Of a DNA stretch of 64,000 nt, positions 11,262-63,470 are shown piece by piece (positions within the stretch are counted from its first letter, which is position 1; each line of letters starts with the position of its first letter). The notes under the pieces were generated by a model, which did no database searches, had not been told where the DNA came from, and saw only the letters and a list, made by a program, of their open reading frames with translations. Location: NCBI RefSeq assembly GCF_003946085.1, contig NZ_RHOB01000011.1, positions 1 to 64,000 on the forward strand, given 5' to 3'. This stretch comes from Levilactobacillus angrenensis (lineage in GTDB: Bacteria > Bacillota > Bacilli > Lactobacillales > Lactobacillaceae). The position numbers and the translations under genes were made by a program.

Positions 11262-11420
11262 AAGATAAAAATTAGTTATTTACAACTTCGTAGTGAGGAC
11301 TGGCTGTCTGCCAAATCTGGGTTGGAAACCGACCGAGTCTAAGAAGCGGTCTCGGCCTCGCTTTGAGCCGAAACGTGCGCCAACAGGCAACTGATTCCGC
11401 CTATTGTCACACCCTTTTTC
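11262..11420 (+). repeat. dispersed intergenic repeat, copy A1
   Basis: This module begins with AGTTATTTACAACTTCGTAG and carries a block reading AGAAGCGGTCTCGGCC followed by TCGCTTTGAGCCGAAAC. It matches the copy at 62954-63066 over most of its length in the same orientation. It lies immediately after the oxidoreductase stop codon. Confidence 0.75.
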
Positions 11421-11469
11421 AGCCTAAGAAAAAGCGCTTAAAACGCAAGCCAAACAGGAAACAAAATAC

Positions 11470-11501
11470 GCACCCCTGGAAATTGTCCGGAGGTGCTTTT
11501 G
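11470..11501 (+). terminator. terminator-like hairpin
   Basis: GCACCCCTGG pairs with CCGGAGGTGC (one mismatch) and is followed by TTTT. It could end oxidoreductase read-through. Confidence 0.6.
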
Positions 11502-11629
11502 TGTTGGCCAATTTTGGCGTATGATGGAATTTATTAATGGTTGTTGCGTGAGTGGGCTGTGGTCTGGGTCGACGGGATTTGCTGTTCAGAATATGTAAGT
11601 TGGCTTGCGTTGAGGAATGAGACCGTTCT

Positions 11630-11695
11630 TTAACTCGACCGCGCCCACCGTGTTCCGACGCTTCTCTGGCGAACGGCAGACGGCCAACAGTATAG
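11630..11695 (-). repeat. dispersed intergenic repeat, copy A2
   Basis: The segment CCCACCGTGTTCCGACG ... GGCGAACGGCAGACGGCCA is a diverged version of the hairpin module seen at 14259-14310 and 47692-47740. It is upstream of the antiporter gene. Confidence 0.65.
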
Positions 11696-11743
11696 TCCAT
11701 CGCAACCGCAACGATTAACGAGACTAAAGAAGGAGGGATCCGC

Positions 11744-12925
11744 GTGGCATTTCTAGGAACGTTATGTTTGATATTGATTCTGACGACCTTGGCGGGCAAC
11801 TTGTCTAACCGCTTAGGCGTGCCAGCAGTCATTGGTGAGTTACTAGTGGGCATTGTCCTGGGACCGGCGCTACTGAACTGGGTACACTTGAACAGTTTAG
11901 TCAGTTTATTCGCCGATATCGGGGTAGTGATTTTGATGTTTCTCGGGGGGCTGGAGAGCAATCTGCAGTTACTGATGAAGTATTTGCGCCCGGCTATCGT
12001 GGTGGCAACCTCCGGCGTGATTTTTCCGGTCGTCTTGATGGGCTTAACGTCTTGGTGGTGGGGCTTTACCCCGCTGGAATCACTCTTTATTGGGGTGATT
12101 TTCTCGGCGACCTCGGTCTCGATTTCGGTGGCCGTGTTAAAGGAATATCACGCCCTGACCACGCGAGAAGGGGCGACGATTTTAGGGGCAGCCGTGGCCG
12201 ACGATATCATTGGCGTGATTTTACTGTCCTTGATGATCAGCCTGCTGGCTAGCCAGGGTATCCAGACGGCGGGCAGTCAACCCGCGCTGGCATTGGTTTT
12301 GCTGGAACAGGTCGTCTTCTTCGTGGGGACATACGCCTTGGTCAAATGGATTGCACCGTACTTAATGCACTTGAGTGAACGACTGGTGGTCCCGTCTAGC
12401 GTGACCATCATGTCGATGGTTATTTGTCTGGGGATGGCTTGGATCGCCGATATCGTTGGCTTGAGTGGGGCCATTGGCGCATTCTTCGCCGGTATCGCCG
12501 TGGCCCACACGTCGTACCGCGCTGTGTTGGTCGACCACGTGGAGCCGCTGGGCAATGCCATTTTCATTCCGGTCTTCTTCGTTAGCGTCGGTCTGAACAT
12601 GACCTTAGACCATTTGGTGGAAAACTTAGGTATCATCGTCATCTTAACGGTGCTCGCCTGCGTGACGAAGCTGATTGGCTGCGGCTTGGGTGCCCGGCTG
12701 AGCGGGTTTAATAGCAACAGCAGTACCGTCATCGGCACGGGGATGATTGCCCGGGGCGAAATGGGCTTGATCACCGCTCAGATTGGTCACGAGGCGGGCT
12801 TGCTCGCCGGTAGTGACTACTCCGCCATGATTTTAGTGATTATTTTAGCAACTATTTTAGCGCCATTATTATTGAAACAGGCATTGAAACGGATGCCGGC
12901 TGGACGACCAGAAGAAGCCGTCTAG
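11744..12925 (+). CDS. cation/proton antiporter (CPA2 family, NapA/KefB-like)
   Basis: 393 residues with about twelve membrane segments. GTG start 11744 follows AAGGAGGG with a 6-nt gap. Family features include the early VPAVIGELLVGIVLGP segment and AVADDIIGVI near residues 149-158, where the Asp-Asp pair is the ion-binding site of CPA2 antiporters. GAIGAFFAGIAVAH and ARGEMGLITAQIG follow towards the C-terminus. There is no RCK/TrkA-N domain, so this is the short Na+/H+ antiporter type rather than full KefB. A role in pH or sodium homeostasis is inferred. Confidence 0.88.
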   Translation: MAFLGTLCLILILTTLAGNLSNRLGVPAVIGELLVGIVLGPALLNWVHLNSLVSLFADIGVVILMFLGGLESNLQLLMKYLRPAIVVATSGVIFPVVLMGLTSWWWGFTPLESLFIGVIFSATSVSISVAVLKEYHALTTREGATILGAAVADDIIGVILLSLMISLLASQGIQTAGSQPALALVLLEQVVFFVGTYALVKWIAPYLMHLSERLVVPSSVTIMSMVICLGMAWIADIVGLSGAIGAFFAGIAVAHTSYRAVLVDHVEPLGNAIFIPVFFVSVGLNMTLDHLVENLGIIVILTVLACVTKLIGCGLGARLSGFNSNSSTVIGTGMIARGEMGLITAQIGHEAGLLAGSDYSAMILVIILATILAPLLLKQALKRMPAGRPEEAV

Positions 12926-12973
12926 CAGTGTTGGGGAACACGGAAAAATTTGTCAAAGGGGTAGGGAAGCAAC

Positions 12974-13156
12974 ATGCGGTTTAATCGATTATTTTATCGC
13001 CAAATCGAGTTTTGGCTTGGTGTAATGCTAGTGTTGGCCGGACTGGTCTTTCTATTGATTGGTCAGGCGTTGACCATCAGCTGGTGGTTGACGATTGTCG
13101 AAATTTTAATTGGGGTGGCCCTCATCGTGGATTGTCTGATTGACAGTTGGCGCTAG
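12974..13156 (+). CDS. small membrane protein, 60 residues
   Basis: The product has two closely spaced membrane segments (about 13-30 and 35-54) and a basic N-terminus (MRFNRLFYRQIEF). A purine-rich AAAGGGGTAGGG site lies upstream. It follows the antiporter gene by 48 nt and shares its terminator, so it may be co-expressed with it. No family recognised. Confidence 0.6.
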   Translation: MRFNRLFYRQIEFWLGVMLVLAGLVFLLIGQALTISWWLTIVEILIGVALIVDCLIDSWR

Positions 13157-13164
13157 TGGGGTCA

Positions 13165-13201
13165 GAAAAGGCGCCTGGGATGCCTCCCGGACGCCTTTTC
13201 C
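13165..13201 (+). terminator. terminator of the antiporter unit
   Basis: AAAAGGCG and CGCCTTTT enclose a second CCTGGGA/TCCCGG stem. Confidence 0.8.
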
Positions 13202-13445
13202 AATTTGCGGGTTCTAGATTGGTTAACCCTACCTTACCGAAGTTAGTCGCCGTCGTCAACGATTTTCGTTTTAACTGAGAAATGGTTGGCGACAGCGACC
13301 GATGCCGCCTTAATGCAATTGCCCAGCTAGCGGGACTGGTGAAATTTGTTCGAATAGTTAATAATCAGGCTTGCTTTCTAACTGGAAGACGCGTAAATTT
13401 AATTGCGAGATGAATGACACACGAGTATTCAAGGGAGGAACCACC
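13202..13445. other. gap before a small exported protein
   Basis: Nothing beyond a probable ribosome binding site AAGGGAGG at 13430-13437 could be recognised in this stretch. Confidence 0.4.
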
Positions 13446-13907
13446 ATGAGTAAACCCTATTTTCTAATTGGCTTAGCCGCCGTCAGCTTCGGCCTGGCAG
13501 CGACCAGTTTGACGAGTGCCCAAGCGGCTACTTGGCACAAAGGAACGCCCAAGGTCATGCGCCACACCTGGTATTATAACGGCAAGGCGGATAACAAGGC
13601 TTATATCACCTACAGTCAGACCAAGAGTACCGGCAACCTGTTCGGCTACGATGACGCCAGCGAGAGTTACTACCGACTGCCCGGCTATGGCTTGAAAAAG
13701 CTGAAATACCAGTCACTGGGCAAGCACGTCTACCGGTTGTCCGGCATCCAGTATTCGCCTAAGGGCAGTACGGTCCAGTTCGACGGCCAGCGGATGACGT
13801 ACAAGGTGAAGGCGACGAAGAAGCAACTGCATTTCTATAAGGGCTACCACAATTATGTCCGCAAGGCGGCCTTCGCCACGATTAAGACGCCGAGTACTTT
13901 GAAATAG
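13446..13907 (+). CDS. small exported protein, unknown
   Basis: 153 residues. Start 13446 is chosen because AAGGGAGG precedes it and the product then opens with a signal peptide (MSKPYFLIGLAAVSFG...) cleaved near Ala-Gln-Ala at about residue 28. An upstream in-frame start at 13371 would bury the signal peptide. The mature part is basic and rich in Tyr, Lys and Gly (HTWYYNGKADNKAYITY, KKLHFYKGYHNYVRK), like many small lactobacillar secreted proteins. It has no known domain and no cysteine. Confidence 0.7.
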   Translation: MSKPYFLIGLAAVSFGLAATSLTSAQAATWHKGTPKVMRHTWYYNGKADNKAYITYSQTKSTGNLFGYDDASESYYRLPGYGLKKLKYQSLGKHVYRLSGIQYSPKGSTVQFDGQRMTYKVKATKKQLHFYKGYHNYVRKAAFATIKTPSTLK

Positions 13908-13961
13908 CGGAGCGCCTGCGTCAGCTCAGCTGGGCAGCAGAATCAACAGTAACAGCATATG

Positions 13962-14004
13962 AAAAAACAGCTTCCCACCGCGATTTGGTGAGAGGCTGTT
14001 TTTA
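13962..14004 (+). terminator. terminator of the small exported protein gene
   Basis: AAAAACAGC and GCTGTTTTT enclose CCACC/GGTG, ending in a T-run. Confidence 0.85.
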
Positions 14005-14016
14005 ATTTGCTGACTA

Positions 14017-14153
14017 AAGATTGAAAGTAACATCAACGCGGTAGTTCTCGGAACGACAGTGTTCTGTCCACTAGATTAGTGAAATCAGGAGCCTGCGTCA
14101 GCCAGAGATTCCGCCTGCTCTGGGGAACACCTCCACCTCTGGCTGCCTCCGGC
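14017..14153 (+). repeat. dispersed intergenic repeat, copy B1
   Basis: It starts at GATTGAAAGTAAC, passes through GGAACGACAGTGTTCTGTCC and AGTGAAATCAGGAGCCTGCG, and ends in CTGCCTCCGGC. The first 75 nt match the reverse complement of 33962-34045. The second part matches the ends, but not the middle, of 29225-29402 and 63253-63430, so this copy looks internally deleted. Confidence 0.8.
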
Positions 14154-14250
14154 GAGTTGTGATTACCTGCAATCTTGTCTTAGTTAAAGACTAGTTGTCA
14201 AATCAGCCGCTACCTGTGGCTAAACCAACTGTTACTAGCAAACACTCTTG

Positions 14251-14325
14251 TAGCCGAGAGTCCGCCCACCGCGTTCCAACCCATAGTTGGCGGACGGTAG
14301 GCGGCCAGCTCCAACTACGAAGCTG
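14251..14325 (-). repeat. dispersed intergenic repeat, copy B2
   Basis: TAGCCGAGAGTCCGCCCACC followed by GCGTTCCAACCCATAGTTGG folds into a nested hairpin (GTCCGCC/GGCGGAC and CCAAC/GTTGG). It is nearly identical to the reverse complement of 62972-63021. It lies just before the 3' end of the convergent helD gene. Confidence 0.8.
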
Positions 14326-14405
14326 TAAATGACTAATTTTAACGTGAGAAGTCGCATAGTGATAATGTTCTAGCTGATTTTCATCTTTCAACCTTCAGTT
14401 GCTGA

Positions 14406-16712
14406 TTAATTTTGGAATTCATGTTCAATCGTCAGGTCCGCCGCCGGAATCTTGTCGGAGGCAATCAGCGGGGAGGCGGGGCCAATCGACAACAGGGTCA
14501 GGTGGTGCATGGCCCGCGACGCAATCGTGTAGAGCGTCCCGGTCAGCTGCTCATCGGGGTAATTGTCAGCGGAAACGTTGTAGGCAATCACACTGTCGAA
14601 CTCCAATCCCTTGGCCAGGTAGATTGGCAACACCACCACACCCTTAGGCAGGGAGCGGTCGGTGTCAGTCAGCCGGGTCAGGTCGAAGTCGCGGTGCAGT
14701 TCTTGATAAACGTACTTGGCTTCGGCTGTGCTCTTGGTGAGAATGGCCACGGTTCCGTTGGTGGCTAGCTCGACCGTCAATTCGTGCGCCAGGGCCTTGA
14801 AGGCCGCCGCCGTGTCGTAACGGATGATGACCTTGGGTAAGTCACCGGGCCGGTTGAAGGCCTCAATCTGGTCGCCATCAGGCAGGAGGGCCTTGGCAAA
14901 CGTCGTGATGGGTAGCGTCGAGCGGTAAGACCGCCGCAGCGTGATCAGCCGTGAGCGTTTGACGTTAAGCGCGGCGTCCAGCTTTTTCAAGATGGCTTCG
15001 GGGGCCTCGACAGCCTTGAAGAGGGCCTGTTCGCTGTCGCCCAGCAACGTAAGCTTGGCGCGCGGAAAGGCGTGTTGCAGGTAAATCAGTTGAGCCATCG
15101 AGTAATCCTGCATTTCATCGACGAAGAGGTGCTGCATCCGGTGGTTTGCCCCGCCACCAGCTAAAATATCGCGCAAATACAGCAACGGTGCGGCATCGGT
15201 CAATGCCAAACGGTGGAACTCAATGTCGTGTTGGTAGCCGTCGATCACTGTTTGCCAGTCAGCCGCCGTCACGTCGTCGGGTAGCGGGCACTGTTTGAGA
15301 AATTCAGTGAACTGGCTGTAGGCGTCCAGAAAGTAGCCGTTGTAAATGGCATCGTCCACGGACCGTAATCGGCGCCGCACGATTTGCCGGGCAATGAAGT
15401 CAATCTCGTCATCGAGCTGTTCAAATTGGCCCAGGTGCTTTTCGCCCAGTAGATTGTGATAATCCTCGTCGCTGAGCTGGTCGATGGTGTCACGGACCCA
15501 GTCAGCCTTGGCTTCCTCGGCAATGCGGTGCTTGAGCCGTTTTTCCAGCTCGTTCTTAGTCCGCAACAAGCGATCGGCAGGTGCGGCGGCCAACGGAATT
15601 TGTCGGTAGATGTCGCGAATCTCTTCTTTACTGAAGAACACCCGGCTCTTGAAGCGGATGTCCGTGAATTTCAGGTCGTCGGCGCGACAGTGCAGGCAGT
15701 AGTCACGTACGGCCGTCATCATTGCGGCACTTTCGCGGAACTGGCGTAGCGGTAGGTTGACCGGCGTTTGTTGGTCGGCTTCGTAGCGCTCGAATTGCGT
15801 TTGGACGTTCAGCCCTTGGAAGCGTTGCGTGAGAAATTCTGCCAGGGTGACCTGGCGCATGTTGCGCTCACCCAAGCTGGGGAGCACGTCACTGATGTAG
15901 TGGCTGAACAAGCGGTTGGGCGAGAACAAGACGATTTGGTCAGCCTCGAGGTCGCGGCGACTGTGGTACAGCAGGAAGGCGATGCGCTGGAGAATGGCGG
16001 ACGTCTTGCCCGACCCGGCAACCCCTTGGACCACGAGCAGGTCGCTCTTGGTATCACGGATGATGTCGTTTTGTTCTCGCTGAATGGTAGCCACGATATT
16101 TTGCATGGTGGCGTCGTTCTGTTCGCCCAAAGCGTGTTGGAGCATTTCATCACCAACAGTCTCGTTGGTGTCAAACATGCTTTCGATTTTGCCGTCTTGA
16201 ATCAGAAATTGCCGCTTCTTCAAGAGGTCGGTCTGTTGTGGGCCGGCCGGTGTGTCGTAGGCGACCTGGCCCAGGACACCGTTGTAGTACACACTGGAAA
16301 TCGGCGCGCGCCAGTCATAGACCAGAAATTCTTGGTCGTCGTTGACAAACGAGGCAGTTCCGATGTACAGCGATTCCGGTTGCGTTTCGTCCGGGTCCTG
16401 AATGTCGATGCGCCCGAAGTAGGGGGATTTCTGGAGTTCTTTAAAGGTATCAAGTTGTCCTTGAATAATGTTTTGGTTTTCCGTCAGCCGCGAGACTAAG
16501 GCCCGTTGCTGCTGGAGTTCGGCACTGGTTTCGATTCGGTCATCGACTTCAAACCAGTTGACCGAGGTGTTTTCGCTATAGTTCTTTAACACGTTACGCA
16601 GCTCTTGGTGCGCCGCGTCATAGTCGGCAGCGGTCTTATCGATGCGCTTGCCAATCTCATCACTCACGCGGTCGACGCGCTGTTGTTCCTGAGCTTCTTC
16701 GCTGGTGGTCAA
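14406..16712 (-). CDS. helD: RNA polymerase recycling motor ATPase HelD
   Basis: 768 residues. A TTG start at 16712 is preferred: AAAGGAGG lies 8 nt upstream and the product then begins MTTSEEAQEQQRV. An upstream TTG would put the ribosome site inside the gene. The N-terminal coiled-coil arm (about 1-110) is followed by a superfamily 1 ATPase core: Walker A GVAGSGKTSAI near 230-240, Walker B HLFVDEMQDYS near 525-535, and GDSEQALF and LRRSYRST motifs. HelD proteins bind RNA polymerase, prise open its clefts and release stalled complexes using ATP. The length is normal for Bacillales/Lactobacillales HelD. The gene is monocistronic. Confidence 0.9.
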   Translation of the reverse strand: MTTSEEAQEQQRVDRVSDEIGKRIDKTAADYDAAHQELRNVLKNYSENTSVNWFEVDDRIETSAELQQQRALVSRLTENQNIIQGQLDTFKELQKSPYFGRIDIQDPDETQPESLYIGTASFVNDDQEFLVYDWRAPISSVYYNGVLGQVAYDTPAGPQQTDLLKKRQFLIQDGKIESMFDTNETVGDEMLQHALGEQNDATMQNIVATIQREQNDIIRDTKSDLLVVQGVAGSGKTSAILQRIAFLLYHSRRDLEADQIVLFSPNRLFSHYISDVLPSLGERNMRQVTLAEFLTQRFQGLNVQTQFERYEADQQTPVNLPLRQFRESAAMMTAVRDYCLHCRADDLKFTDIRFKSRVFFSKEEIRDIYRQIPLAAAPADRLLRTKNELEKRLKHRIAEEAKADWVRDTIDQLSDEDYHNLLGEKHLGQFEQLDDEIDFIARQIVRRRLRSVDDAIYNGYFLDAYSQFTEFLKQCPLPDDVTAADWQTVIDGYQHDIEFHRLALTDAAPLLYLRDILAGGGANHRMQHLFVDEMQDYSMAQLIYLQHAFPRAKLTLLGDSEQALFKAVEAPEAILKKLDAALNVKRSRLITLRRSYRSTLPITTFAKALLPDGDQIEAFNRPGDLPKVIIRYDTAAAFKALAHELTVELATNGTVAILTKSTAEAKYVYQELHRDFDLTRLTDTDRSLPKGVVVLPIYLAKGLEFDSVIAYNVSADNYPDEQLTGTLYTIASRAMHHLTLLSIGPASPLIASDKIPAADLTIEHEFQN

Positions 16713-16876
16713 AACGACCGCCTCCTTTGGGTAGACTAAAGTGCCTAACAAGTTTAGTCATTATTGGGGGCTGTGTCAATCAATCTAGCTTGGGAAGGGA
16801 GAAGTCAAATGAAGTGGGAATGTCTTTAATTTGAAATTGGCATAAGGAAGGCCATGAGTTTTGTGCATTTTGCATA

Positions 16877-16892
16877 AGAAAGCGCTTACTTA
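16877..16892 (+). promoter_or_regulatory. catabolite response element (cre) upstream of adh
   Basis: AAGAAAGCGCTTACTT fits the CcpA operator (core GAAAGCGCTTAC). It sits just upstream of a possible -10 TATGAT at 16905-16910, over the -35 region, so CcpA would be expected to control the alcohol dehydrogenase gene. Confidence 0.65.
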
Positions 16893-16943
16893 ATTAGAGC
16901 GTTTTATGATACTCTTAATGTAAGGTAGTTATCAGTCAATGAA

Positions 16944-16966
16944 AATGGTGTCGCGCTTACACCATT
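16944..16966 (+). promoter_or_regulatory. 5' leader hairpin of the alcohol dehydrogenase gene
   Basis: AATGGTGT and ACACCATT form a perfect 8-bp stem around a 7-nt loop, directly followed by the palindrome TCAGGCCTGA. It lies in the presumed leader RNA and lacks a T-run, so it is not a standard terminator. Confidence 0.5.
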
Positions 16967-17010
16967 CAGGCCTGAGATTACCGCAATACATAGGTGAAAG
17001 GATGAGTGTT

Positions 17011-17961
17011 ATGCAAGGCTGGCAATTTACGAAGACTCATGCACCACTACAATTAGTTGAGGTCGCGGATCCCGTCGCGGCGGCAGGGCAAGTGGTCGTG
17101 GCTATCAAGGCGTCCGGGCTCTGTCACACGGACGTGACCATCATGGATGACCCGGGCTGGATGGACTTGGTACAGCCGCCCGTTATCTTGGGTCACGAGT
17201 GTGCGGGGGTCATCGAATCAGTCGGCACTGGCGTCAGCAAATTTAAACCGGGCGACCGCGTTGGCGTATGTCCCATTGATCCGGATACGCAGGTCTCCAT
17301 TGGTGGTGTGGTCGACGGTGCCTATGCAAACAAGCTGGTCGTCCCGCAAACGGAATTGATTCCGTTGCCCGACAACGTCTCATTCATTGACGGCGCGGCG
17401 GCCACGGATGCCGGCATGACATCGCACCGGGCCATCTTTGGCGTCGGTGGCGCGCGGGCCGGGATGAAGGTCGGTATCGTGGGTATTGGCGGTATCGGTG
17501 ATTTCGGTGCGCAGCTGGCAATTGCGGCCGGTTGCGATGTTTACGCCGCGGACCCGAAGCCGGAAGCCAAGCAGATGGCGGCGGCCATGGGGTGCAAGGC
17601 CATCTTTGATGACGTCAGTGAGATGAAAGACATCGCGCCTGATTTGATTGTGGACTTTGCAGGCTTTGATACGACCACAGCCCACGCGCTGTCAGTGGTC
17701 GCGCCGGGCGGCAAGGTCGTCGTGGTGGGGATGGGCATTCTCCACTCGACCATCAGTACCTGGGACCTGATTATGAAGCGGGCGCAACTCGTCGGCAGCA
17801 TGGGCGGCGACAACTCAGACATCGCCTTTTGCTACGACGCGTTGTCTAAGGGCCTGGTCAAACCGGCACTGACCACCATTGACTTCAGCGAAATTGACCA
17901 AGGCTTGGAAAAGTTGCGGCAAGGTGGCGTCACCGGGCGGTTGATTGCGACGCAGGCGTAG
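17011..17961 (+). CDS. zinc-type alcohol dehydrogenase family protein (AdhP-like)
   Basis: 316 residues. The ATG at 17011 has GAAAGGA 8 nt upstream; the ATG at 17002 is too close. Medium-chain dehydrogenase fold: Cys38 (SGLCHTDVTIMDDP) and His62-Glu63 (LGHECAG) are catalytic zinc residues, and GIVGIGGIGDFGAQLA near 167-182 binds NAD(H). Two oddities are seen. The four-cysteine structural-zinc lobe is missing (only VGVCPIDPD remains), and the usual third catalytic-zinc Cys is Asp133 in AATDAGMTSH. Family members reduce acetaldehyde and other short aldehydes; this variant may have another substrate. A cre site and a leader hairpin precede it. Confidence 0.85.
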   Translation: MQGWQFTKTHAPLQLVEVADPVAAAGQVVVAIKASGLCHTDVTIMDDPGWMDLVQPPVILGHECAGVIESVGTGVSKFKPGDRVGVCPIDPDTQVSIGGVVDGAYANKLVVPQTELIPLPDNVSFIDGAAATDAGMTSHRAIFGVGGARAGMKVGIVGIGGIGDFGAQLAIAAGCDVYAADPKPEAKQMAAAMGCKAIFDDVSEMKDIAPDLIVDFAGFDTTTAHALSVVAPGGKVVVVGMGILHSTISTWDLIMKRAQLVGSMGGDNSDIAFCYDALSKGLVKPALTTIDFSEIDQGLEKLRQGGVTGRLIATQA

Positions 17962-17981
17962 TGTGATAAATGAATAGAAGT

Positions 17982-18014
17982 GAGGCCGTTCCCATGATGG
18001 GGCGGCCTTTTTTA
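17982..18014 (+). terminator. terminator of the alcohol dehydrogenase gene
   Basis: AGGCCG and CGGCCT enclose CCCATGATGGG and are followed by TTTTTT. Confidence 0.85.
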
Positions 18015-18296
18015 TAAATCAGATTATAATAAAACATAATTAAAATAATTTACATTAATAACGATGACTAGGGACGATAATCTGGTATACTGAGATTAAG
18101 CAAAATTCTGAGTTGATAGGTGGCATTGAAACGCTTGAATATTCAGTGAAAACTAGGTCGCTGATATCCAGGAGATGTTGGGGGAATTGGCGCAGAAGGT
18201 TTTCATTCCCGGAAAATTAATGAATGGGATTAACGTCTAACCCAGCAAAAGAGTAGTTATTAGTGATCCATAAGCACAAAAAAGGTGGAGGCGGCA
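18015..18296 (+). promoter_or_regulatory. leader region with extended -10 promoter
   Basis: An AT-rich start leads to TGGTATACT (extended -10, hexamer 18086-18091). If used, this leaves a 5' leader of about 200 nt before the exported Ig-like protein gene. No riboswitch was recognised in it. Confidence 0.45.
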
Positions 18297-20186
18297 TTGG
18301 TCATGATAGTGGGAAGAATGGTGCGACTGTTGGTGATGGCGCTAATAGTCTTAACCGTTATGGGGATTCGGCAGCTAACTGAACCGTCGCGAGAGGTGGC
18401 GTTGGCGGCTACGATTCAAGGTGTGGGAGTCGAAAGCCCAGCACCAATTAAGGTTGCAGGGATATTTTTTAGTACGGGATTTAATTTGCAACCGGCTGAT
18501 AGCTATACGTTTGTGGGACACGAAAAGACGCTGAGAACTTCGGTTGTGCGTCCGGTGACTGAAAGACTATTTGCTTCTCAAATTCAATGGTTTCAGTGGA
18601 AACAGGGGATGAATAGTTGGGACGAGGTTAAGGGGAAAAACAATTTCGACTTAACAGTCAAGCCACAGAAGACGGGAGAGATATATTATCAGGAAAAATA
18701 CTCGTCTAAAGGATGGACAGGAGGATTGCTTGGTCAGAGTACCTGGTATTCACGAGTAGCTAAGTTAACAATTGCTTCCGAGCCAGTCTCAGCTAAGGAG
18801 CTAGCGATAACGACAGATAATAACTATCTTTACAACAATCAGCAAACTGCCCAGCAGACTTACGTACATGCCACCCCGATGCCCCCCAATGCTACCGGGG
18901 ACCTCACGTGGTCGAGCTCCGATAAGTCTTTGGCTACCGTTGATGCCAAAACGGGCAAGGTCACAGCCAATACGCGTCGCTCAGCTGGCGTTGCTACCAT
19001 CACGGGAACGATGACCAATGCTGACGGGACCTCTGTTTCGGCTAATGTCAAAATCACAATTGGTGAGGGCTTAACCGCACAAACAGTTGATGAAGGCCAG
19101 CCCGCCACGTTTAAAATTTTAGGAAAGTTTGATCAGACGCCTACTCAGGTCATCTGGCATCGGGTCGATGGTGCTGGCAAAGATACGGTGGTTAGCAGGC
19201 AGACTAAGATGAGCTATACGACTCCTGCCACGACACCAACTGATAATCACAACCAGTATTATGCAGAGATTAAAGTTAACTCTGATGGCAAAGAACAGAC
19301 TATTACGACTGGTCAGGCAACGCTAAACGTTAATCCCAGCACGCGGCCTAGCGTTAATATCACGAATGCAATTAATGATAAAACTGATTTATGGAATTCT
19401 TCCAAGTCGACTGACATTGCGGTCATTGCCAACGATACCTGCCAGATTACTGGCATAGTGACTGATCAGAATCCGGCGTCGAAGCTCAGTACAGGTGATT
19501 TAGAATTTAATTTACCGCAAGAAGCGATCGTCTCTGGCGTCAGCGTCGACAACCAACCGGCGACTTACACCGCCGTCGCCGATAATCGTATGGACAAGAC
19601 TTATGCCGTGCAGAATCAGGACTTTAGACAGACTAAAACGCACACGGTCGTCGTCACTTTTAAGATACCGAAGATGCCTAAAGGCCGCTACAAGACTGGT
19701 ATTAAGTTGCGCGGATACGATGGACAGACGCCGCTCCAATCATTGGGAACTTTCAGTGGCAACGATGTGGTCCTGAACTTCACGGATGGCAAAATTGATA
19801 TCAAGGCAAACGCTGTCAGTTTTGGTAACTTAACGATGCGCAACTTGGGACAGAACATACCAGGAAGGGCTACCGGAGATGGTGAATTGCTAGATGTTGC
19901 GGACCATCGGCGGGAGAAGACTGTTGAGCGGATTACGTTGCGCCAGGTCGCGCCATTGAGCAATAAAACCGGAGATTTACCCGCAACAATCAGCTTTGAT
20001 CCGGGCCATCAGCACCCCTTACAGCCGCTATCGACCACCGCCCGCGATGTTGTGAGGACTAAAGATAATGAGACACTTTCCTCCATCGGGACTGTTCAGG
20101 GTCAAGGGCTAACGCTCAACGTGCATGCTTGGAAACCGGGCGTGTACACGACCGAATTGGACTGGGGTATTATCACGGCACCCTAA
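18297..20186 (+). CDS. exported Ig-like / WxL-like surface protein
   Basis: 629 residues from the TTG at 18297, which has GGTGGAGG 5 nt upstream; the ATG at 18303 is the alternative. The N-terminus is a signal peptide or anchor (VRLLVMALIVLTVMGI). A BIG_2 bacterial Ig-like domain lies near 195-265 (GDLTWSSSDKSLATVDAKTGKVTA, then GVATITGTMTNADGTS), followed by a second Ig-like strand region. The last about 190 residues look like a diverged WxL domain (FGNLTMRNLGQNIPGRA ... GVYTTELDWGIITAP). WxL domains bind peptidoglycan non-covalently. There is no LPXTG motif. Its role as a surface or adhesion protein is inferred; the usual DUF916 partner genes are absent. Confidence 0.65.
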   Translation: MVMIVGRMVRLLVMALIVLTVMGIRQLTEPSREVALAATIQGVGVESPAPIKVAGIFFSTGFNLQPADSYTFVGHEKTLRTSVVRPVTERLFASQIQWFQWKQGMNSWDEVKGKNNFDLTVKPQKTGEIYYQEKYSSKGWTGGLLGQSTWYSRVAKLTIASEPVSAKELAITTDNNYLYNNQQTAQQTYVHATPMPPNATGDLTWSSSDKSLATVDAKTGKVTANTRRSAGVATITGTMTNADGTSVSANVKITIGEGLTAQTVDEGQPATFKILGKFDQTPTQVIWHRVDGAGKDTVVSRQTKMSYTTPATTPTDNHNQYYAEIKVNSDGKEQTITTGQATLNVNPSTRPSVNITNAINDKTDLWNSSKSTDIAVIANDTCQITGIVTDQNPASKLSTGDLEFNLPQEAIVSGVSVDNQPATYTAVADNRMDKTYAVQNQDFRQTKTHTVVVTFKIPKMPKGRYKTGIKLRGYDGQTPLQSLGTFSGNDVVLNFTDGKIDIKANAVSFGNLTMRNLGQNIPGRATGDGELLDVADHRREKTVERITLRQVAPLSNKTGDLPATISFDPGHQHPLQPLSTTARDVVRTKDNETLSSIGTVQGQGLTLNVHAWKPGVYTTELDWGIITAP

Positions 20187-20269
20187 GAATTCCAGGTATT
20201 TGTAGCGGCCACTCACTATAAAAATCTTTGTAGAAGATACCAGTTTACTTTACGCAGAAAAACCACTAA

Positions 20270-20494: not shown

Positions 20495-20512
20495 AAAAGG
20501 AGAATACGTTTA

Positions 20513-22473: not shown

Positions 22474-22485
22474 GGAGGCCGACCA

Positions 22486-29154: not shown

Positions 29155-29402
29155 AAATACCAGTTGCCATCTATTGCCGCCTACCGTTCCGCGAAAAGCT
29201 AGGCTGACGAAACCAGTCGCCTACGGCTGCCAGGGGTTCCGCCTGCTAGGGGGAACGGCTCCAGCCAAAGAGCGGGCTTCCACCTCGCTTGAAAGCCTGG
29301 CCAGACCCGCCAGTCTCTCAAGTCGTCCCACGCTGTAGGCTGAGATAAAACCTCAGCCAACACCGTCGACACAGCTGGCTGCACTCCTGGCCTTCTCCGG
29401 CA
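29155..29402 (+). repeat. dispersed intergenic repeat, copy C1
   Basis: From GGGGTTCCGCCTGCTAGGGG to GGCCTTCTCCGGC, this copy matches the reverse complement of 63253-63430 over about 170 nt. Shared parts include CGCTTGAAAGCCTGGC, AAGTCGTCCCACGCTGTAGG and the small hairpin GGCTGAG-loop-CTCAGCC, whose loop differs between copies while the stem is kept. Confidence 0.85.
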
Positions 29403-29524
29403 AAGTTGGGCTCTCCCGGTGTACGTGTGTGCTAATTGTGGCTCAGAATTGAGTTGCCAGTCACGGGCACGGCGCCGGAACAACCTCCAGTGCGAGTCAA
29501 ACATTTCGGGGGTGTTTTCGGGTT
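29403..29524. other. unassigned stretch between two repeat copies
   Basis: No gene, terminator or promoter recognised; it may be a further diverged part of the repeat family. Confidence 0.3.
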
Positions 29525-29738
29525 AATGCAAAGCTATTGGCTAGCACTACCGTAGCCGAGAGTGGAGCGAAAACTAGGCTCAGCCGGGGAATTTAGCAGC
29601 ATACTTTGCTGGTAAATTGGTGACTTTGAGACGTGACTTTCGGCTCAAATCAAGGGCCGAGACTGGGCTCTTTGGCTCGGGCCGTCCTCCCCCAGCGTTC
29701 CAGCCTAGTTTTCGCGCAACGGCAGGCGGCAGGCAAGA
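29525..29738 (-). repeat. dispersed intergenic repeat, copy C2
   Basis: It contains TAGCCGAGAGT (as in copy B2) and TTTCGGCTCAAATCAAGGGC, the reverse-strand version of the CGCTTTGAGCCGAAA block of copies A1 and E1. It ends with GCGTTCCAGCCTAG ... GGCAGGCGGCAGGC. The outer arms GAAAACTAGGCT and AGCCTAGTTTTC (29568-29579 and 29702-29713) are a perfect 12-bp inverted pair, so the whole element can fold back. It lies directly upstream of tatD. Confidence 0.75.
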
Positions 29739-33936: not shown

Positions 33937-33961
33937 GACTAACGCTGACAGGCTAAATCTC

Positions 33962-34045
33962 TGGCGGACGCAGGCTCCTGTTTTCACTGATAGTAGACAG
34001 GACACCGCCGTTTCGGGAATTACTGCGTAAACGCTACTTTCAATC
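33962..34045 (-). repeat. dispersed intergenic repeat, copy F (single module)
   Basis: GCGGACGCAGGCTCCTGTTT through TAGACAGGACACCGCCGTTT to CTTTCAATC is the reverse complement of copy B1's first 75 nt with scattered substitutions. It stands alone in a convergent gap just before a bidirectional terminator. Confidence 0.75.
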
Positions 34046-34054
34046 TTTCGTTAA

Positions 34055-47529: not shown

Positions 47530-47750
47530 AAAGGTTGAAAATTGAATTAATGTCTTGACTCCCGGAGCGACAGCGTTTTGTCCACCAGAACTAGTGAAAC
47601 CAGGGCCTGCGTCAGCCAGGGTTCCGCCTGCTCTGGGGAACGCTTCCGGCCAAAGAACAGGCTTCCGCTTCGCTTTTTAGGCTCGGTCCGGTCCGCCCAC
47701 CGCGTTCCAACTCATATTTGGCGGATGGTAGGCGGCCAGCATATCTGACG
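47530..47750 (+). repeat. dispersed intergenic repeat, copy D
   Basis: It opens with the B1-type module (GAGCGACAGCG, TGTCCACCAGAACTAGTGAA, GGGCCTGCGTCAGCCAGG), continues with GTTCCGCCTGCTCTGGGGAA and ends with the hairpin module GTCCGCCCACCGCGTTCCAA ... GGTAGGCGGCCAGC as in copy B2. So D joins in one unit the parts that are apart in copy B. Confidence 0.85.
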
Positions 47751-53231: not shown

Positions 53232-53270
53232 TTAAAAAATCGACTTATCCGCTGAGGGGGTAAGTCGATA
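53232..53270 (-). terminator. terminator of the HAD operon
   Basis: ATCGACTTA and TAAGTCGAT pair perfectly; read leftwards they run into TTTTTTAA. Confidence 0.85.
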
Positions 53271-53357
53271 ACGGTTTGATTAATTAACGTCTAAGGGGTG
53301 AAAGCAAAACTAACTCATGCAATCCCGAAATGACAGTGTTTTGGAAACATTAGCGGA

Positions 53358-54176: not shown

Positions 54177-54198
54177 GAAGGCGTCTCCTTTAAATGAG

Positions 54199-55011: not shown

Positions 55012-55013
55012 GG

Positions 55014-56378: not shown

Positions 56379-56400
56379 ACTGATTCCTCCTTTAAGTCGG

Positions 56401-57228
56401 TTAATTTAAACGTGGTTGTCGCCGGACCATTTGGGCGGTGGCGTGTTCTAAATCTGTTTGAAATTTCGGGGTCGCCATCAACGTGGCCAATTTTTCGTGG
56501 CCCACGTGTAGCCCGGCGTTCGTTGCGGCGGTGATGAACCGTTGCTTTGCATCCGCCACCGTAAGGTCCTGGTGGAGCAGTGCCGCGGTGGTCGTCATCA
56601 CGTTGGGGTCGACGTCGGGGAAGCCCCATTTATTTTCCGCCGTACTGAGGCCGGCTTGATAGAAGTCGCGAATCATTGCGCCGCGCGCGGGTTGGTCGCC
56701 GTTCACACCGAGGTACAACATGATCACCAAGGCGTGCGGACTGCGCCGTTGGGCGATACCGGCAATCTTCTTGCCGGCGACACTCAGGTCATAATCACCG
56801 GGGCAATAGGAGCGGGTGATCTCATAGTGTTCCAGTGACAGCTCCGGCCAGGCGGCGTCGACCAAGGCGGTCATTTGCGCATAAGCGGCCTCGACACTGA
56901 TGGGGGGCGTGGTGAGTGGGGCAAATAACGAGACGTTCAACACGCCCGCGTCACTGACGACGGCCAGACCACCAGAGTTGCGGAGCACGTAATCATAGCC
57001 ATGCCCGGAAACGGCCTTCACAGCCGCTGTCAGGTCCGGTAGGCGTTTGTCCTTCAGTCCCATGATAACGGTAGGCTGCATGGTCCAGAAGTGCAAAATG
57101 GGCTGCTGAAGGTCGACAACGAGGTCCAGGAGAGCGTTGGTGTAGCCAAAGGCCTGATTTTTCTGATCAGCCGGGATCGGCGTGGTCACGGTTTGAAGTG
57201 AATCTGTGGGGAGGTTAAACGGAAACAT
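56401..57228 (-). CDS. lipoate-protein ligase / octanoyl-GcvH amidotransferase (LipL-like)
   Basis: 275 residues of the BPL/LplA/LipB fold. RNSGGLAVVSDAGVLNVSL near 83-101 is the RRxxGGGAVxHD-like lipoyl-binding region. SYCPGDYDLSVAGKKIAGIAQRR near 145-167 contains a Cys matching the catalytic Cys of LipL and the conserved Lys of the family. LipL moves octanoyl or lipoyl groups between GcvH and E2 proteins. Its gene order next to the YwfO-like gene supports the LipL assignment over a free-lipoate ligase. Confidence 0.82.
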   Translation of the reverse strand: MFPFNLPTDSLQTVTTPIPADQKNQAFGYTNALLDLVVDLQQPILHFWTMQPTVIMGLKDKRLPDLTAAVKAVSGHGYDYVLRNSGGLAVVSDAGVLNVSLFAPLTTPPISVEAAYAQMTALVDAAWPELSLEHYEITRSYCPGDYDLSVAGKKIAGIAQRRSPHALVIMLYLGVNGDQPARGAMIRDFYQAGLSTAENKWGFPDVDPNVMTTTAALLHQDLTVADAKQRFITAATNAGLHVGHEKLATLMATPKFQTDLEHATAQMVRRQPRLN

Positions 57229-57486
57229 GAAACCTACCTTCTTTCGTAAAGTTTCTTCAATCTCTCATTATACTAGAAAACGCTTGCGCCGTCATGGTCT
57301 GTACCAGTGACTAGTCAACGATTGCCTGAAAGTTGGTCACGGGTCCCGCTACCCGTTTGCGAGGGGGTGTCAACGGCGGGGGCAACCCGTGAAGCACCAC
57401 CCCCAGAAAAAGAAGATAATTGGTAGGCTTTCCCGGGAAAATGAACTATAATTAATCCAGACAATTCGCGGAAAGGAAGTGTGCAA
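57229..57486 (+). promoter_or_regulatory. divergent gap with ywiB promoter
   Basis: GC-rich sequence with a proline-codon-like CACCACCCCC stretch and no gene. A -10 TATAAT at 57447-57452 (weak -35 region) lies 35 nt before the ywiB-rpoE start. A hairpin-forming GGGTCCCGCTACCC lies near 57342-57355. Confidence 0.45.
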
Positions 57487-57927
57487 ATGGATCGATTATC
57501 TACGGGGGTGCCCGTCATGATTCACTTGGAGACGCACATTAAGCAGGACCAAGACGTTTCGGATTACCGCTTGGATGTGGATGGCCAACTGGTTCAGATG
57601 GGTCGGACCCTGTACTTGCGGTATTTGGAACCGAATAAGGAAACGGGTGAACAGACACCGGTCACCATGAAGTTTACGCCAGAAGGTGAAGTCCATCTGA
57701 CCCGCAACGCTGAAGCTGAATTGCGGCTACACTTTGTGAGTGGCAAACGCGTGACGGCCCGGTACAACACGCCGTACGGCATCATGCCGATCGAAACCGT
57801 GACGCCTTATTTGGAGACCAGCTTCAAGGAAAGACCGTTTAGTGGCAACGTTAAGATCGACTACTTACTCTATGCGAATGAAGATCTGGTCGGAAACTAC
57901 AAGATTAGATTGCAATTTACCGCATAA
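57487..57927 (+). CDS. DUF1934 family protein (YwiB-like)
   Basis: 146 residues of a calycin-like beta-barrel fold: VMIHLETHIKQDQDVSDY at the start, MGRTLYLRYLE near 38-48, and GNVKIDYLLYANEDLVGNYKIRLQFT at the end. The function is unknown. The gene precedes rpoE and pyrG, the conserved Bacillales/Lactobacillales arrangement. ATG 57487 is preferred to a GTG 6 nt upstream because of AAAGGAA spacing. Confidence 0.85.
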   Translation: MDRLSTGVPVMIHLETHIKQDQDVSDYRLDVDGQLVQMGRTLYLRYLEPNKETGEQTPVTMKFTPEGEVHLTRNAEAELRLHFVSGKRVTARYNTPYGIMPIETVTPYLETSFKERPFSGNVKIDYLLYANEDLVGNYKIRLQFTA

Positions 57928-57971
57928 ACGAGTATCATATTTCGTAGACTGTGGAAAGGACGTGCACCAGT

Positions 57972-58631
57972 TTGGAATTAAAAGTCTTTGAGGGCCAGAA
58001 CAAAAAGGAATTATCAATGATCGAAGTTGCTCACGCCATTTTATCGCAACATGGCGATGTGATGGCATTTGCTGACTTAGCAAACGCCGTCCAAGCCTAT
58101 TTAGGCGATAGCGACGCAGAAGTTCGTGACCGGCTGTCCCAATTCTATACGGATTTAAATGTCGATGGTAGTTTCATTTCTCTGGGTGATAACCTTTGGG
58201 GACTGCGAACTTGGTATCCGTTTGAATCCATCGATGAAGCGACCGTTCACGCCGAGGAAGATGAAGATCAACCTAAGCGTAAGAAGCGCAAGAAGGTTAA
58301 CGCCTTCTTGGCCGACACGACCGATGACGATGATGTGATCGATTACGATGACGACGATCCAGAAGATGACGATACGACCACGTATGCATCTGACGATGAC
58401 GACGATGATACGACCGGCAACGGCGGCACCCCTGATCTGGGCAAGCTCCAGAACGGGTTAGGCATCGACGACGATGACGAAGAAGACGATTCGGAAGACA
58501 TTCCGGATGGTATCGAAGACCAGCTTTCCCAAATGGAAGCCCCGGACGACGATGATGAAAATCTTGATTTCTCCGCCGACGACGATGAAGCTGACGATGA
58601 TGAAGATGAAGATGACGAAGAACAAAAATAA
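57972..58631 (+). CDS. rpoE: DNA-directed RNA polymerase subunit delta
   Basis: 219 residues from a TTG start ([24 protein letters not shown]). The globular N-terminal HARE-HTH domain covers about 1-90 ([43 protein letters not shown]). A basic KRKKRKK patch near 103-109 is followed by an extremely acidic Asp/Glu tail of about 110 residues. Delta increases promoter specificity and recycling of RNA polymerase in low-GC Gram-positives. The long acidic tail with an intervening basic patch is the normal RpoE layout. Confidence 0.94.
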
Positions 58632-58646
58632 TTTTGCGTTCTTTGC

Positions 58647-60405
<1,759 letters not shown>

Positions 60406-60421
60406 GCTAAGCTGATTAGCG

Positions 60422-60455
60422 AAGGAGTAGGGGAAGTTGCCTGCTCCTTTTTTTA
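60422..60455 (+). terminator. pyrG terminator
   Basis: AAGGAGTAGG and CCTGCTCCTT pair with one G-U and are followed by seven T. Confidence 0.85.
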
Positions 60456-60667
60456 ACGAAAAATTTCAGTTCTTCAAAATAACGAAATGCCGCCATGCCG
60501 CGGTTAATCCACTCAAAAACCACGTTAATTATTTATCGTTCATTAAGAAACTTTTAATGTGAACATGTTTGTGGACGTTAACCACCAATCATGGTATTCT
60601 GTAGGGTAATATGAGTGGCTGACTTAAATAAGTTAACTTAGCTAACGACCGTGGGGAGGGCTGTGAC

Positions 60668-62815
60668 GTGAAGAAAAGATGGGGATGGTTAATCGCTTTG
60701 GCCGCAATCTGGGGCCTGGGCGGTGGTAGCATCGTGAGTCAGGCAAGCGATACCGCCGTGAGCGACGACTTGCCAGCTAGCTTTGCTCTGAACGGCATTT
60801 TCAATACGACCAGTAAGATTCCCAACGTCACGAATAACGCGACGCTGGTCACGAACAATCATGGGCTACAGCTGACCAGTGGTGCGACTAGCCAAAACGG
60901 GGCGGCCTGGGCGACGAGTGATAATAAATTTGACCTCAGCAAGAACGGTCGCTTTTCAATGTGGCTGTATTTTGGTAAAAATGGCGCGTCCAACTCTGGC
61001 CAGGGGATGGCGTTTGTAATGCAAAATGCGGGTGCTACTGGCTTCACCGCCTTTCCCAGTGCAGCGAAACCAGCTGGGCAATCGCTGGGGGTCTGGGGAG
61101 TCGACTACGACAACACGGCGACCGATGCCAAGGCAGTTGCGGCCTCAGCTATTCAAAAGAGTTGGGCGCTGGAATTCGATGAGCAGGTCAATAACAACCG
61201 TGACGGGGGCAACAATAGCGGCTTGGATTATAATTATCCCTATGAAGACGAGCAACATGTGGCGTCTAATTATCCGGGTGAGACCACCAGCTACGCGCGA
61301 AACGGGACGCAGAGTAGTGGGAATAAATACTACTACCGCTTAATTCATCAGGGGGCTTTTGTCACCACCTTGTCGGACGGTGCCTGGCATCACGTCACGT
61401 TGGATTGGACGGCGCCAACGGGGACCAGCGATACGGGAACCATGACCTACACGCTGGGGGACAAGAACCCAACTACCGGGGCCAGTCAAACACCAACGAA
61501 TACCAAGACAGTCAGCGTGGATTTGACTAAGCTGGGCATCAATGCAACCGATAGCACCAAACAGGTCTACTGGGGCTTTACCGGGACGTCGACCACGCTA
61601 ACAGCCAACAACGTCGTGGCCTTTGAGCACATCCCGGGACTGGTCAACGCCAGTTCCGCCGTAACGGTGACTGACCAGAGTACCGGTAAGACGATTAGCG
61701 ACGGTGATACGGTCAACGGCAACGATGCGCTGGCCTACACCTACAAATTAAATTATGATGGTGGCAATCAGACTTGGCAAAACATTGAAGCCCAACTACC
61801 ACGGCCCGCTGGCGTCACTTTCTCGGCGGGGACGATCACCTATGCCGATGGCAGCACGGAAACCTTGAGCAGTTCCGAACTGAATTCAAGCACGCTGGCC
61901 CACACTTTGGGGAAGAATCTTTCCACGGCTAATGCCAGCGCGACAATCACATTGACCGGGCAGGCAAACGCGGTGACCAGCCAGACGAGTGTGGCCAGCA
62001 CCATCGGCCACTTCAATGGCAGCAATGAAATTAGTTCGGTGACAACGCCGAGCTACACCATTTTCCCCGCACGGCAATGGATATTGGCCGTGTCTTCTGG
62101 GAGCACCATGACGGCCCAGCCTGGTCAGAGCGTGAAAGTCACGGGGAGCGTGGCCGTGGATAGTAGCGCGGATGATGAGACGGTGACCAATAAAGATGTG
62201 ACGATGCATGCTAGTCTGGATAACGGGTACACGATTGACGACTTCACCCTCAACGGCAGTTCCAGCGATCCCGATGAGGAGGGGGTATTTAACCTAACGA
62301 TTCCCGCCGATAAACTGGTGACGGGTGTTAACAAATTAACGTTGTACACGACCGATGACCGGGGAAATAAATCCAAAGAAGTGAGCGTGACCATCACAGT
62401 GACGGGGACGTTGGCGTTTAAGAACGTGAATCCTAAAAGTTCCTTCGTGACCACGCGTCTGGCTGGTACTTCGACGCTGATTGGCCGCAATGCCGACTGG
62501 GACGTCTCCGTGACCAACGCCCGAGGGAAAGGTTCCGAGTGGTCGGTGACGGCGCAGGCCAGTGACTTTACAGATCCGGACACGGCTACCAAATTGGCCG
62601 GTGAGGCTGTCTGGGTGGACGCATCAGGCAATACCAGTTCACTGACGCAGGCGCAGGTCATTGCCAGCGGGACCAACACTGCCGCCAGCCAAACGACGAA
62701 CATCGTCGACGACTGGGGCAACGCTGGTGGCATCATGCTCAAAACCAATAGCGACGCGATTAGCGGTGACTATCAGGGAACGATCACCTGGACACTGAGC
62801 AATACCTTGAATTAA
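60668..62815 (+). CDS. exported L-type lectin / WxL domain surface protein
   Basis: 715 residues from GTG 60668, preceded by GGGGAGGG. A signal peptide ends near residue 27 (SQAS-D). Residues about 35-330 form an L-type (legume-like) lectin domain: GAAWATSDNKFDLSKNGRFSMWLYFG, GQGMAFVMQN, ALEFDEQVNNNRDGG, and WHHVTLDWTAP. Ig-like beta repeats follow, and about 570-715 is a WxL domain ending in GDYQGTITWTLSNTLN. The family binds carbohydrate through the lectin and peptidoglycan through WxL. There is no LPXTG motif, and DUF916 or other WxL-cluster genes are not adjacent. A role in attachment to glycans is inferred. Confidence 0.82.
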   Translation: MKKRWGWLIALAAIWGLGGGSIVSQASDTAVSDDLPASFALNGIFNTTSKIPNVTNNATLVTNNHGLQLTSGATSQNGAAWATSDNKFDLSKNGRFSMWLYFGKNGASNSGQGMAFVMQNAGATGFTAFPSAAKPAGQSLGVWGVDYDNTATDAKAVAASAIQKSWALEFDEQVNNNRDGGNNSGLDYNYPYEDEQHVASNYPGETTSYARNGTQSSGNKYYYRLIHQGAFVTTLSDGAWHHVTLDWTAPTGTSDTGTMTYTLGDKNPTTGASQTPTNTKTVSVDLTKLGINATDSTKQVYWGFTGTSTTLTANNVVAFEHIPGLVNASSAVTVTDQSTGKTISDGDTVNGNDALAYTYKLNYDGGNQTWQNIEAQLPRPAGVTFSAGTITYADGSTETLSSSELNSSTLAHTLGKNLSTANASATITLTGQANAVTSQTSVASTIGHFNGSNEISSVTTPSYTIFPARQWILAVSSGSTMTAQPGQSVKVTGSVAVDSSADDETVTNKDVTMHASLDNGYTIDDFTLNGSSSDPDEEGVFNLTIPADKLVTGVNKLTLYTTDDRGNKSKEVSVTITVTGTLAFKNVNPKSSFVTTRLAGTSTLIGRNADWDVSVTNARGKGSEWSVTAQASDFTDPDTATKLAGEAVWVDASGNTSSLTQAQVIASGTNTAASQTTNIVDDWGNAGGIMLKTNSDAISGDYQGTITWTLSNTLN

Positions 62816-62856
62816 GTCAGTGTCAGCACCGGCTTGACTGAAAATTGAGAACGCAC

Positions 62857-62895
62857 AAAAACAGGCACGGCCCCAGCGGGCGCGTGCCTGTTTTG
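62857..62895 (+). terminator. terminator of the lectin/WxL gene
   Basis: AAAACAGGCACG and CGTGCCTGTTTT pair perfectly around a GCCC/GGGC inner stem. Confidence 0.9.
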
Positions 62896-62953
62896 TATGC
62901 ATTTAAAGCTGAAATCAGTTAGAACAACTCATGGCATTAGTAGGATTGGTCGG

Positions 62954-63066
62954 TTACAGCTTCAGTGTGAGAGCTGGCCGCCTACCGTCCGCCAACTATG
63001 GGTTGGAACGCAGTGGCGGACCGGACCGAGCCTGAAAAGCGGTCTCGGCCTCGCTTTGAGCCGAAA
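62954..63066 (+). repeat. dispersed intergenic repeat, copy E1
   Basis: The module CAGCTTCAGTGTGAGAGCTG followed by GCCGCCTACCGTCCGCCAAC (nested hairpin) and AGCGGTCTCGGCCTCGCTTT matches copy A1 in order and orientation, and copies B2 and D as reverse complement over its first half. Confidence 0.85.
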
Positions 63067-63252
63067 CCCACGTCTCAAAGACGCCAGTTGTCTAAGCGGC
63101 ATGAACCGCGCCGCTAAGGCAACTCCCACGGCTGAACCCATATTTGGCGGACTCTCGGCTACAAGTGTGCGTGATAGCAATGGTTAGCTTAGCCCCAGTT
63201 AGCGGTTGATTTAACAACTAGTCTTTAACTAGCGCCATCTTGCAGATAATCA
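63067..63252. other. unassigned stretch between repeat copies E1 and E2
   Basis: No gene recognised. It carries GGACTCTCGGCTACAAGTG and TGATAGCAATGGTTAGCTTA near 63150-63190, which match the reverse complement of 14224-14262, so most of this stretch also belongs to the repeat family. Confidence 0.5.
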
Positions 63253-63470
63253 CCAACCGGCCGGAGGCAGTCAGGGATGGAGCCAGCTGTGGCGACGGTG
63301 TTGGCTGAGGTTCTTTCTCAGCCTACAGCGTGGGACGACTTGAAAGCCTGGCGAACTTTGCCAGGCTTTCAAGCGAACCGGAAGACCGCTCCTCAGGCTG
63401 GAGGTGTTCCCCAGAGCAGGCGGAACCTCTGGCTGACGCAGGCTCCTGGTGTCGCTATTCAGAACGCAGT
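63253..63470 (-). repeat. dispersed intergenic repeat, copy E2
   Basis: The reverse complement of the C1-type module. It contains a perfect 14-bp hairpin CTTGAAAGCCTGGC / GCCAGGCTTTCAAG and the smaller GGCTGAG / CTCAGCC hairpin, and ends in GGCTGACGCAGGCTCCTGGT. The stop codon of the FtsX-like gene (63455-63457) falls within or directly at this edge. Confidence 0.85.

Follow-up and report, generated by a model that had tools for sequence, protein, structure and literature searches.

Mosaic intergenic repeats in a Levilactobacillus genome are probable copies of an ISPepr1-type MITE that carries an inverted pair of branched hairpin units

REP repeats are palindromic and biased to the 3' sides of genes, and their palindromic unit is short, about 20-40 nt. 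BOX, RUP and Correia elements are non-coding, modular, intergenic repeats, each of a single lineage and partly MITE-like; they are set apart from the repeats analysed here by their ends, duplications and size, on general descriptions rather than by sequence comparison. The REP, BIME and REPIN repeats of proteobacteria are a subject of PMC3116915 and PMC8266576. The known kind of element most relevant here is the MITE of the ISPepr1 subgroup, which is defined within the IS4 family in PMC2266710. For this subgroup, Table 1 of that paper lists ends of the form YT-AA-YTT---A, 7-8 bp repeats and a size of 1500-1600 bp.

The window analysed is a 64,000-nucleotide stretch of a draft Levilactobacillus genome of 2.80 Mb in 62 contigs (G000). 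As far as its sequence can tell, its intergenic repeats are very probably old, partly deleted copies of an ISPepr1-type MITE of about 640 bp. Like MITEs of this subgroup, they have CT ends that agree with the consensus end in PMC2266710 at seven of the eight specified bases, 7-8 bp duplications, a non-coding body and, in the genus, an insertion sequence with identical 14-bp ends. They differ in measuring about 640 bp and in their interior, which is no remnant of the insertion sequence but holds two conserved, branched units in inverted orientation. What is uncommon is this cargo unit, which ranges across the family and covaries in Watson-Crick pairs only.

Six segments of the window had been grouped by the original prediction into one repeat family with blocks in different orders and orientations. 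Comparison of the segments bears this out, since blocks recur among them, in either orientation, more than chance would allow, with inter-segment BLAST E-values down to 2e-50 (Table 1). Further copies, whose scarcity the prediction had named as evidence against itself, are numerous. With up to 3 mismatches allowed, the window genome contains 117 occurrences of a 32-base core motif, against 0 in the reversed control. A search of the same genome with window positions 62930-63480 returned at least 46 matches, namely the query itself, 39 long matches of 83-92% identity and 6 of 30-35 bases, a lower bound because 40 of 273 candidates were scored. The statement that the repeats never lie inside a gene start also fits, as 16 of the 30 best genome copies are flanked by convergent genes, 13 by tandem genes and none by divergent genes, with 1 unclassed, on rough ORF calls.

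Alignment of 30 copies gives a complete element of about 640 bp, with most two-ended copies measuring 633-644 bp, bounded at both ends by the inverted repeats CTRAAGGTTGAAAG. Allowing one more degenerate base, the end motif has 95 exact occurrences in the window genome and 0 in the reversed control. Among the matches listed, 22 facing end pairs lie less than 700 bp apart, 14 of them spanning 615-644 bp and 8 shortened to 281-482 bp. The target-site duplications that the prediction proposed looking for are present: 18 of 25 end pairs, sampled from the window and other loci of its genome, are flanked by 7-8 bp duplications (at least 7 of 8 or 6 of 7 bases matching) and 7 are not, while shuffling of the flanks yielded a mean of 1.25 and a maximum of 7 in 2000 rounds. 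Similar ends with duplications were also found in two other genera, at L117 and L133, one of 7 bp and one of 8 bp with 1 mismatch. The element lacks a transposase gene, as the prediction had stated, and protein-coding content of any kind is unsupported, since the longest open frames of the 30 copies reach 71-106 codons against a mean of 97 for the shuffled consensus. Variation among the copies is by deletion, truncation, inversion and nesting. Copy F has no outer ends that can be recognised even when 4 mismatches are allowed.

Table 1. Positions of the six repeat copies in the window and of their parts. M1 and M2 are the two units of the element, P2 to P5 their predicted helices and R1 the covariance model of the unit.
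Feature	Position	Strand	Evidence
Copy A, three scattered fragments	11262-11695		
Copy A fragment 1, piece of left outer arm	11268-11312	-	BLAST, 80% to 14340-14296
Copy A fragment 2, hairpins P3/P4 of the unit	11331-11397	+	R1, E 0.01; 11331-11374 matches 63024-63067 at 93%
Copy A fragment 3, unit edge (P2 strand)	11642-11689	-	77% to 47694-47741
Copy B, internally deleted MITE, 385 bp end to end	14014-14398		Homology to copy F
Copy B left inverted end	14014-14027	+	End motif search
Copy B right inverted end	14385-14398	-	End motif search
Copy B left target duplication, TTGCTGA	14007-14013		Identical to 14399-14405
Copy B right target duplication, TTGCTGA	14399-14405		Perfect 7-bp repeat of 14007-14013
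Copy C, pair of units	about 29170-29733		Shared blocks, R1 matches
Copy C extra P2-like arm	29175-29206		Complementary to 29701-29731, self BLAST 91%
Copy C M2-type unit	29218-29403	+	R1, E 0.026; 82% inverted match to 63260-63454
Copy C M1-type unit	29553-29728	-	R1, E 4e-31
Copy D, right outer arm only, right end CTTTCAATCTTTCG	33949-34050		81% inverted match to 14013-14117; right end motif with 1 mismatch
Copy E, rearranged fragment combining outer arm with edges of M2 and M1	47525-47741		Matches to B, C and F; R1 match 47571-47734 (-), E 0.0034
Copy F, doublet, fullest copy in the window, nearly whole core	62945-63457		Both units
Copy F M1 unit	62979-63161	+	R1, E 1e-39
Copy F M2 unit, inverted, diverged	63260-63454	-	82% to copy C; R1 partial match 63334-63405 (-), E 5e-4

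The partner of the element was reached through a broken IS4 transposase piece that adjoins one MITE-type end in the window genome (L141), relatives of which occur in 12 of the 34 genus genomes searched. The motif Y-2-R-3-E-6-K, read by eye in this piece, corresponds to the YREK motif defined in PMC2266710. From there the search led to an ISPepr1-like insertion sequence of the IS4 family in a related species (L158). This element is 1559 bp long, is flanked by an 8-bp target duplication (ctgattaa) and carries at both ends the 14-bp sequence CTAAAGGTTGAAAG, identical to the MITE ends. Its 489-codon open frame matches NF049925 (IS4_4 transposase) with 469.9 bits against a cut-off of 250, over positions 4-443 of 449. 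In size, ends and 7-8 bp repeats, it is consistent with the ISPepr1 entry of PMC2266710. Together, the inverted ends, the target duplications and an insertion sequence with identical ends identify the repeats as MITEs, which sustains the prediction's reading of non-autonomous mobile elements.

The hairpin unit had no match in six loci that bear the insertion sequence, so the MITE interior is cargo and not a remnant of the insertion sequence. No intact partner was found in the window's draft genome, its single transposase-piece match being broken and adjoining an IS5, which makes current mobility in this genome doubtful. A 3-kb stretch between two end motifs on contig C30, at L141, was rejected as a candidate autonomous element because it consists of the broken IS4 relative, the IS5 and xerS.

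The original prediction also offered a REP-like nature, and this holds only loosely. As in REP, BIME and REPIN systems, many copies lie in intergenic DNA and the units are paired in inverted orientation. Movement of single-stranded hairpins by a Y1 (RAYT) transposase would account for this arrangement, yet it is highly improbable here, given the clear 7-8 bp target duplications, the IS4 partner and a unit of about 180 nt. Moreover, PF01797, the Y1 family of REP systems, has 0 matches in the window genome, while it does match in 5 of 14 control genomes; the absence of a Y1 transposase match also disfavours an IS200/IS605 origin. Origin from a phage or plasmid was likewise set aside, as the 195-nt core matched none of 50,697 phage or 72,556 plasmid records, and exact searches of viral contigs with a 27-base core pattern and with a gapped end-to-end pattern found nothing.

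The cargo consists of two inverted units, M1 and M2, homologous but diverged and each about 180 nt long. In the predicted fold, a P2 arm encloses the hairpins P3, P4 and P5. Covariance model R1, with 178 positions, was built from 38 units of 12 genus genomes and gives rough E-values. Its matches fall in 119 of the 397 Lactobacillaceae genomes sampled and in 14 of 40 genera. In an order-wide sample, 25 of 395 genomes have matches, of which 23 belong to the family and the other two carry a single weak match each; with 6 candidates scored per genome, both samples give presence and not copy number. Neighbouring units form 32 pairs, of which 29 are convergent and 3 tandem, with none divergent, counting gaps below 700 nt and E at most 0.1, excluding opposite-strand overlaps and a duplicate listing of copy C (L227), with some pairs representing one place in two species. 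Among the matches listed in searches of open-access papers, no description of the unit or the element was found; PMC2267715 and PMC1590033 name Lactobacillus once each, for L. johnsonii. The novelty of the unit of about 180 nt is accordingly provisional.

The stems of the unit covary strongly. Standard pairs fill 96.0% of cells, a share that drops to 35-48% once partners are slid, and both sides vary in 25 of 39 pairs. Such a multi-hairpin fold with compensatory changes resembles large structured RNAs of the RNase P kind, from which the unit differs in its many dispersed copies, its lack of a G-U excess and its lack of an Rfam match. Non-standard pairs in the unit comprise 18 G-U, 35 A-C and 25 others against 1404 Watson-Crick pairs, whereas the RNase P control (30 genus loci, structure likewise from RNAalifold) has 475 G-U, 1 A-C and 10 others against 2687. 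In 27 units from three related species, G014, G016 and G029, there are 15 G-U and 16 A-C. Distinct per-genome states number 3 G-U and 16 A-C in hairpin P3, and 1 G-U and 2 A-C in P4. In 30 copies from the window genome, M1 has 21 G-U and 33 A-C, and M2 has 27 and 44 in its own orientation, corresponding to 44 and 27 on the M1 strand.

In the orientation of the unit, A-C exceeds G-U by 1.6-1.9 fold in the first of these sets and in the window-genome copies, a mild asymmetry that leaves room for a weak preference on the opposite strand. A structure predicted for that strand gives 114 G-U and 20 A-C, a count biased by 11 extra pairs chosen with G-U allowed, although the lean towards that strand recurs. 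We conclude that the strong G-U preference of a working RNA is found on neither strand, and that there is a mild lean to the one opposite the unit. That G-U is no commoner than A-C argues against a constraint on single-stranded RNA and for one that acts on DNA or is strand-symmetric. Rfam searches at gathering score recovered only 5S rRNA and tRNA in the window, and in 8 loci at E at most 5 returned 10 scattered matches, none above gathering score and none coherent, so no known structured RNA is recognised. The RNA decoys that the prediction had offered as a further possibility find no backing in these results.

The pattern fits a constraint on DNA structure or correction from arm to arm. In the second case, template switching in quasi-palindromes at replication, together with gene conversion, could keep near-perfect stems in a structure without function, and could also produce Watson-Crick-only covariation. 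Such a process would leave paired columns little altered, produce double changes and favour no G-U pairs among dispersed copies. Within the units of the 30 copies, paired columns indeed change at 0.019 and 0.038 and unpaired columns at 0.108, and nested and swapped units are seen. However, some unpaired positions are invariant, 25 of 27 units retain an internal A-A mismatch in P5 (A-T in the other 2), and an unpaired T in P3 is present in 27 of 27, which argues against correction alone. Furthermore, the units evolve more slowly than the rest of the same copies, with identities to the consensus of 94.7% and 93.7%, against 82.6% and 79.4% for the outer arms and 85.2% for the spacer. Upkeep of the stems by such processes, with no function of the structure, is rather unlikely. 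The DNA-level reading of the unit is favoured, with about an even chance of being right.

Units of the same kind also occur outside the MITE. In G014, G016 and G029, a search allowing up to 3 mismatches found no MITE ends in any of 11 loci, so the MITE fails to explain the whole spread of the unit. These end-less units are closed by a different stem, about GGGTTAAAC/GTTTAACCC, which by eye varies in step between copies and lies near stop codons. At pgsA, an M2-type interior stands within the P2 arms in G016 and G029, in the place where G014 has an intact M1 (also by eye). These observations suggest two layers, in which the unit spreads by its own means and was captured by an ISPepr1-type MITE in some lineages. 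This is compatible with the explanation preferred here and quite plausible, at somewhat less than even chances. Against it stand the finding of neither an enzyme nor a target duplication for a second route, and the consideration that aged MITE copies whose ends have eroded could have the same appearance.

In the same three species, the unit follows a co-oriented gene by 8-25 nt, right after the stop codon, at 14 of 20 loci; these are top-scoring matches on rough ORF calls, and four pairs are one place in two species, leaving about 10 places. Across a mixed set of 58 units, a co-oriented stop stands within 40 nt of only 14, so tight placement at gene ends is not general. Ten adjoining genes were scanned and are ordinary and diverse, such as metG and pgsA, two having no family match. 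A terminator-like hairpin follows the unit by 102-271 nt in 9 of 16 gene-adjacent units and was not found in 3 of 16; with separate hairpins downstream, the unit itself is unsupported as a terminator.

Such positions, the downstream hairpins and the strong covariation of the stems are also what a structured 3'-UTR RNA would show, one that serves as stabiliser, decoy or processing site and travels with the MITE. This alternative is nonetheless improbable, considering the pair counts (15 G-U against 16 A-C, compared with 475 against 1 in RNase P), the missing Rfam match and the patchy occurrence of the unit at gene ends. At E at most 0.5 in 30 of the 34 genomes, unit matches 3' of metG occur at 18 of 30 species loci with none detected at 12, and 3' of pgsA at 7 of 30 with none detected at 23. 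Among the matches listed, the metG stop, terminator and next gene adjoin in several species, leaving no space for the unit.

The original prediction had regarded the same copies at the same places in all relatives as evidence against itself, and the orthologous gaps at metG and pgsA differ between species. The metG unit pair has one order in the window species and G030 and the reverse order in G025; G030 and G025 are its genus neighbours. Together with the interior swap at pgsA, this reversal explains the kind of mosaic seen in the window.

Taken together, the most probable course of events begins with an IS4-family, ISPepr1-type DDE transposase that would move the non-coding element in trans through the shared ends. 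Insertion would occur into AT-rich intergenic DNA with duplication of 7-8 bp. The cargo is the two inverted, branched hairpin units of about 180 nt, which range more widely than the MITE across Lactobacillaceae. The structure of the unit may matter as DNA, most simply as a branched cruciform formed by both strands. The mosaic would then arise by deletion, by the nesting and inversion seen among copies, and probably by gene conversion. More tentatively, the unit may represent an undescribed class of DNA structure in Lactobacillaceae, a branched cruciform under selection on both DNA strands, often at gene 3' ends, spread in part by a route of its own and captured by IS4-type MITEs; as a whole, this proposal is possible but not likely.

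These elements account for the mosaic make-up of intergenic DNA in such genomes. The unit recurs in many genomes of a bacterial family found in food and the gut, and it offers a clear test of whether large repeat structures in bacteria can be conserved as DNA, and not through RNA or a side effect of mutation. Strand-symmetric covariation restricted to Watson-Crick pairs, judged beside RNase P of the same genus as control, could serve as a simple measure for other repeat families. If the proposal of a selected cruciform captured by MITEs is true, a transposon would disperse a host-relevant DNA structure through the genome.

The interior of the repeat unit, in which a P2 arm encloses hairpins P3, P4 and P5, is not alike in close species at one orthologous gap. 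Comparison of this gap, L190 and L191 versus L189, showed M1-type arms enclosing an M2-type interior.

Other features were observed near element copies or elsewhere in the window and its genome. At L141, a locus on contig C30 of this genome, a broken IS4-family piece adjoins an IS5-family piece and a xerS gene. Within the window, the end of a 148-aa reading frame coincides with the edge of copy F, the fullest element copy, and the frame matches the C-terminal part of MacB/ADOP-type permeases. A larger, repeat-rich frame gives a weak internalin_J match, and its product is probably a surface protein.

Reading frames and repeats in the window
Feature	Position	Remark
1268-aa reading frame	2694-6500	contains long 30-nt tandem repeats
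30-nt tandem repeats	about 4050-5926	inside the 1268-aa frame
148-aa reading frame	63455-63901	abuts copy F

Directly downstream of pgsA (L195 and L194), a GTGTTCCCCACAGGTGTGGGGGTGATCC-like repeat forms an array that resembles a CRISPR locus and adjoins this gene in both L. angrenensis and its genus neighbour L. suantsaiihabitans.

Hairpins P3 and P4 share the apical motif RAGCC...GTCTY at many loci. This motif, which served as a search pattern, may be a recognition element.
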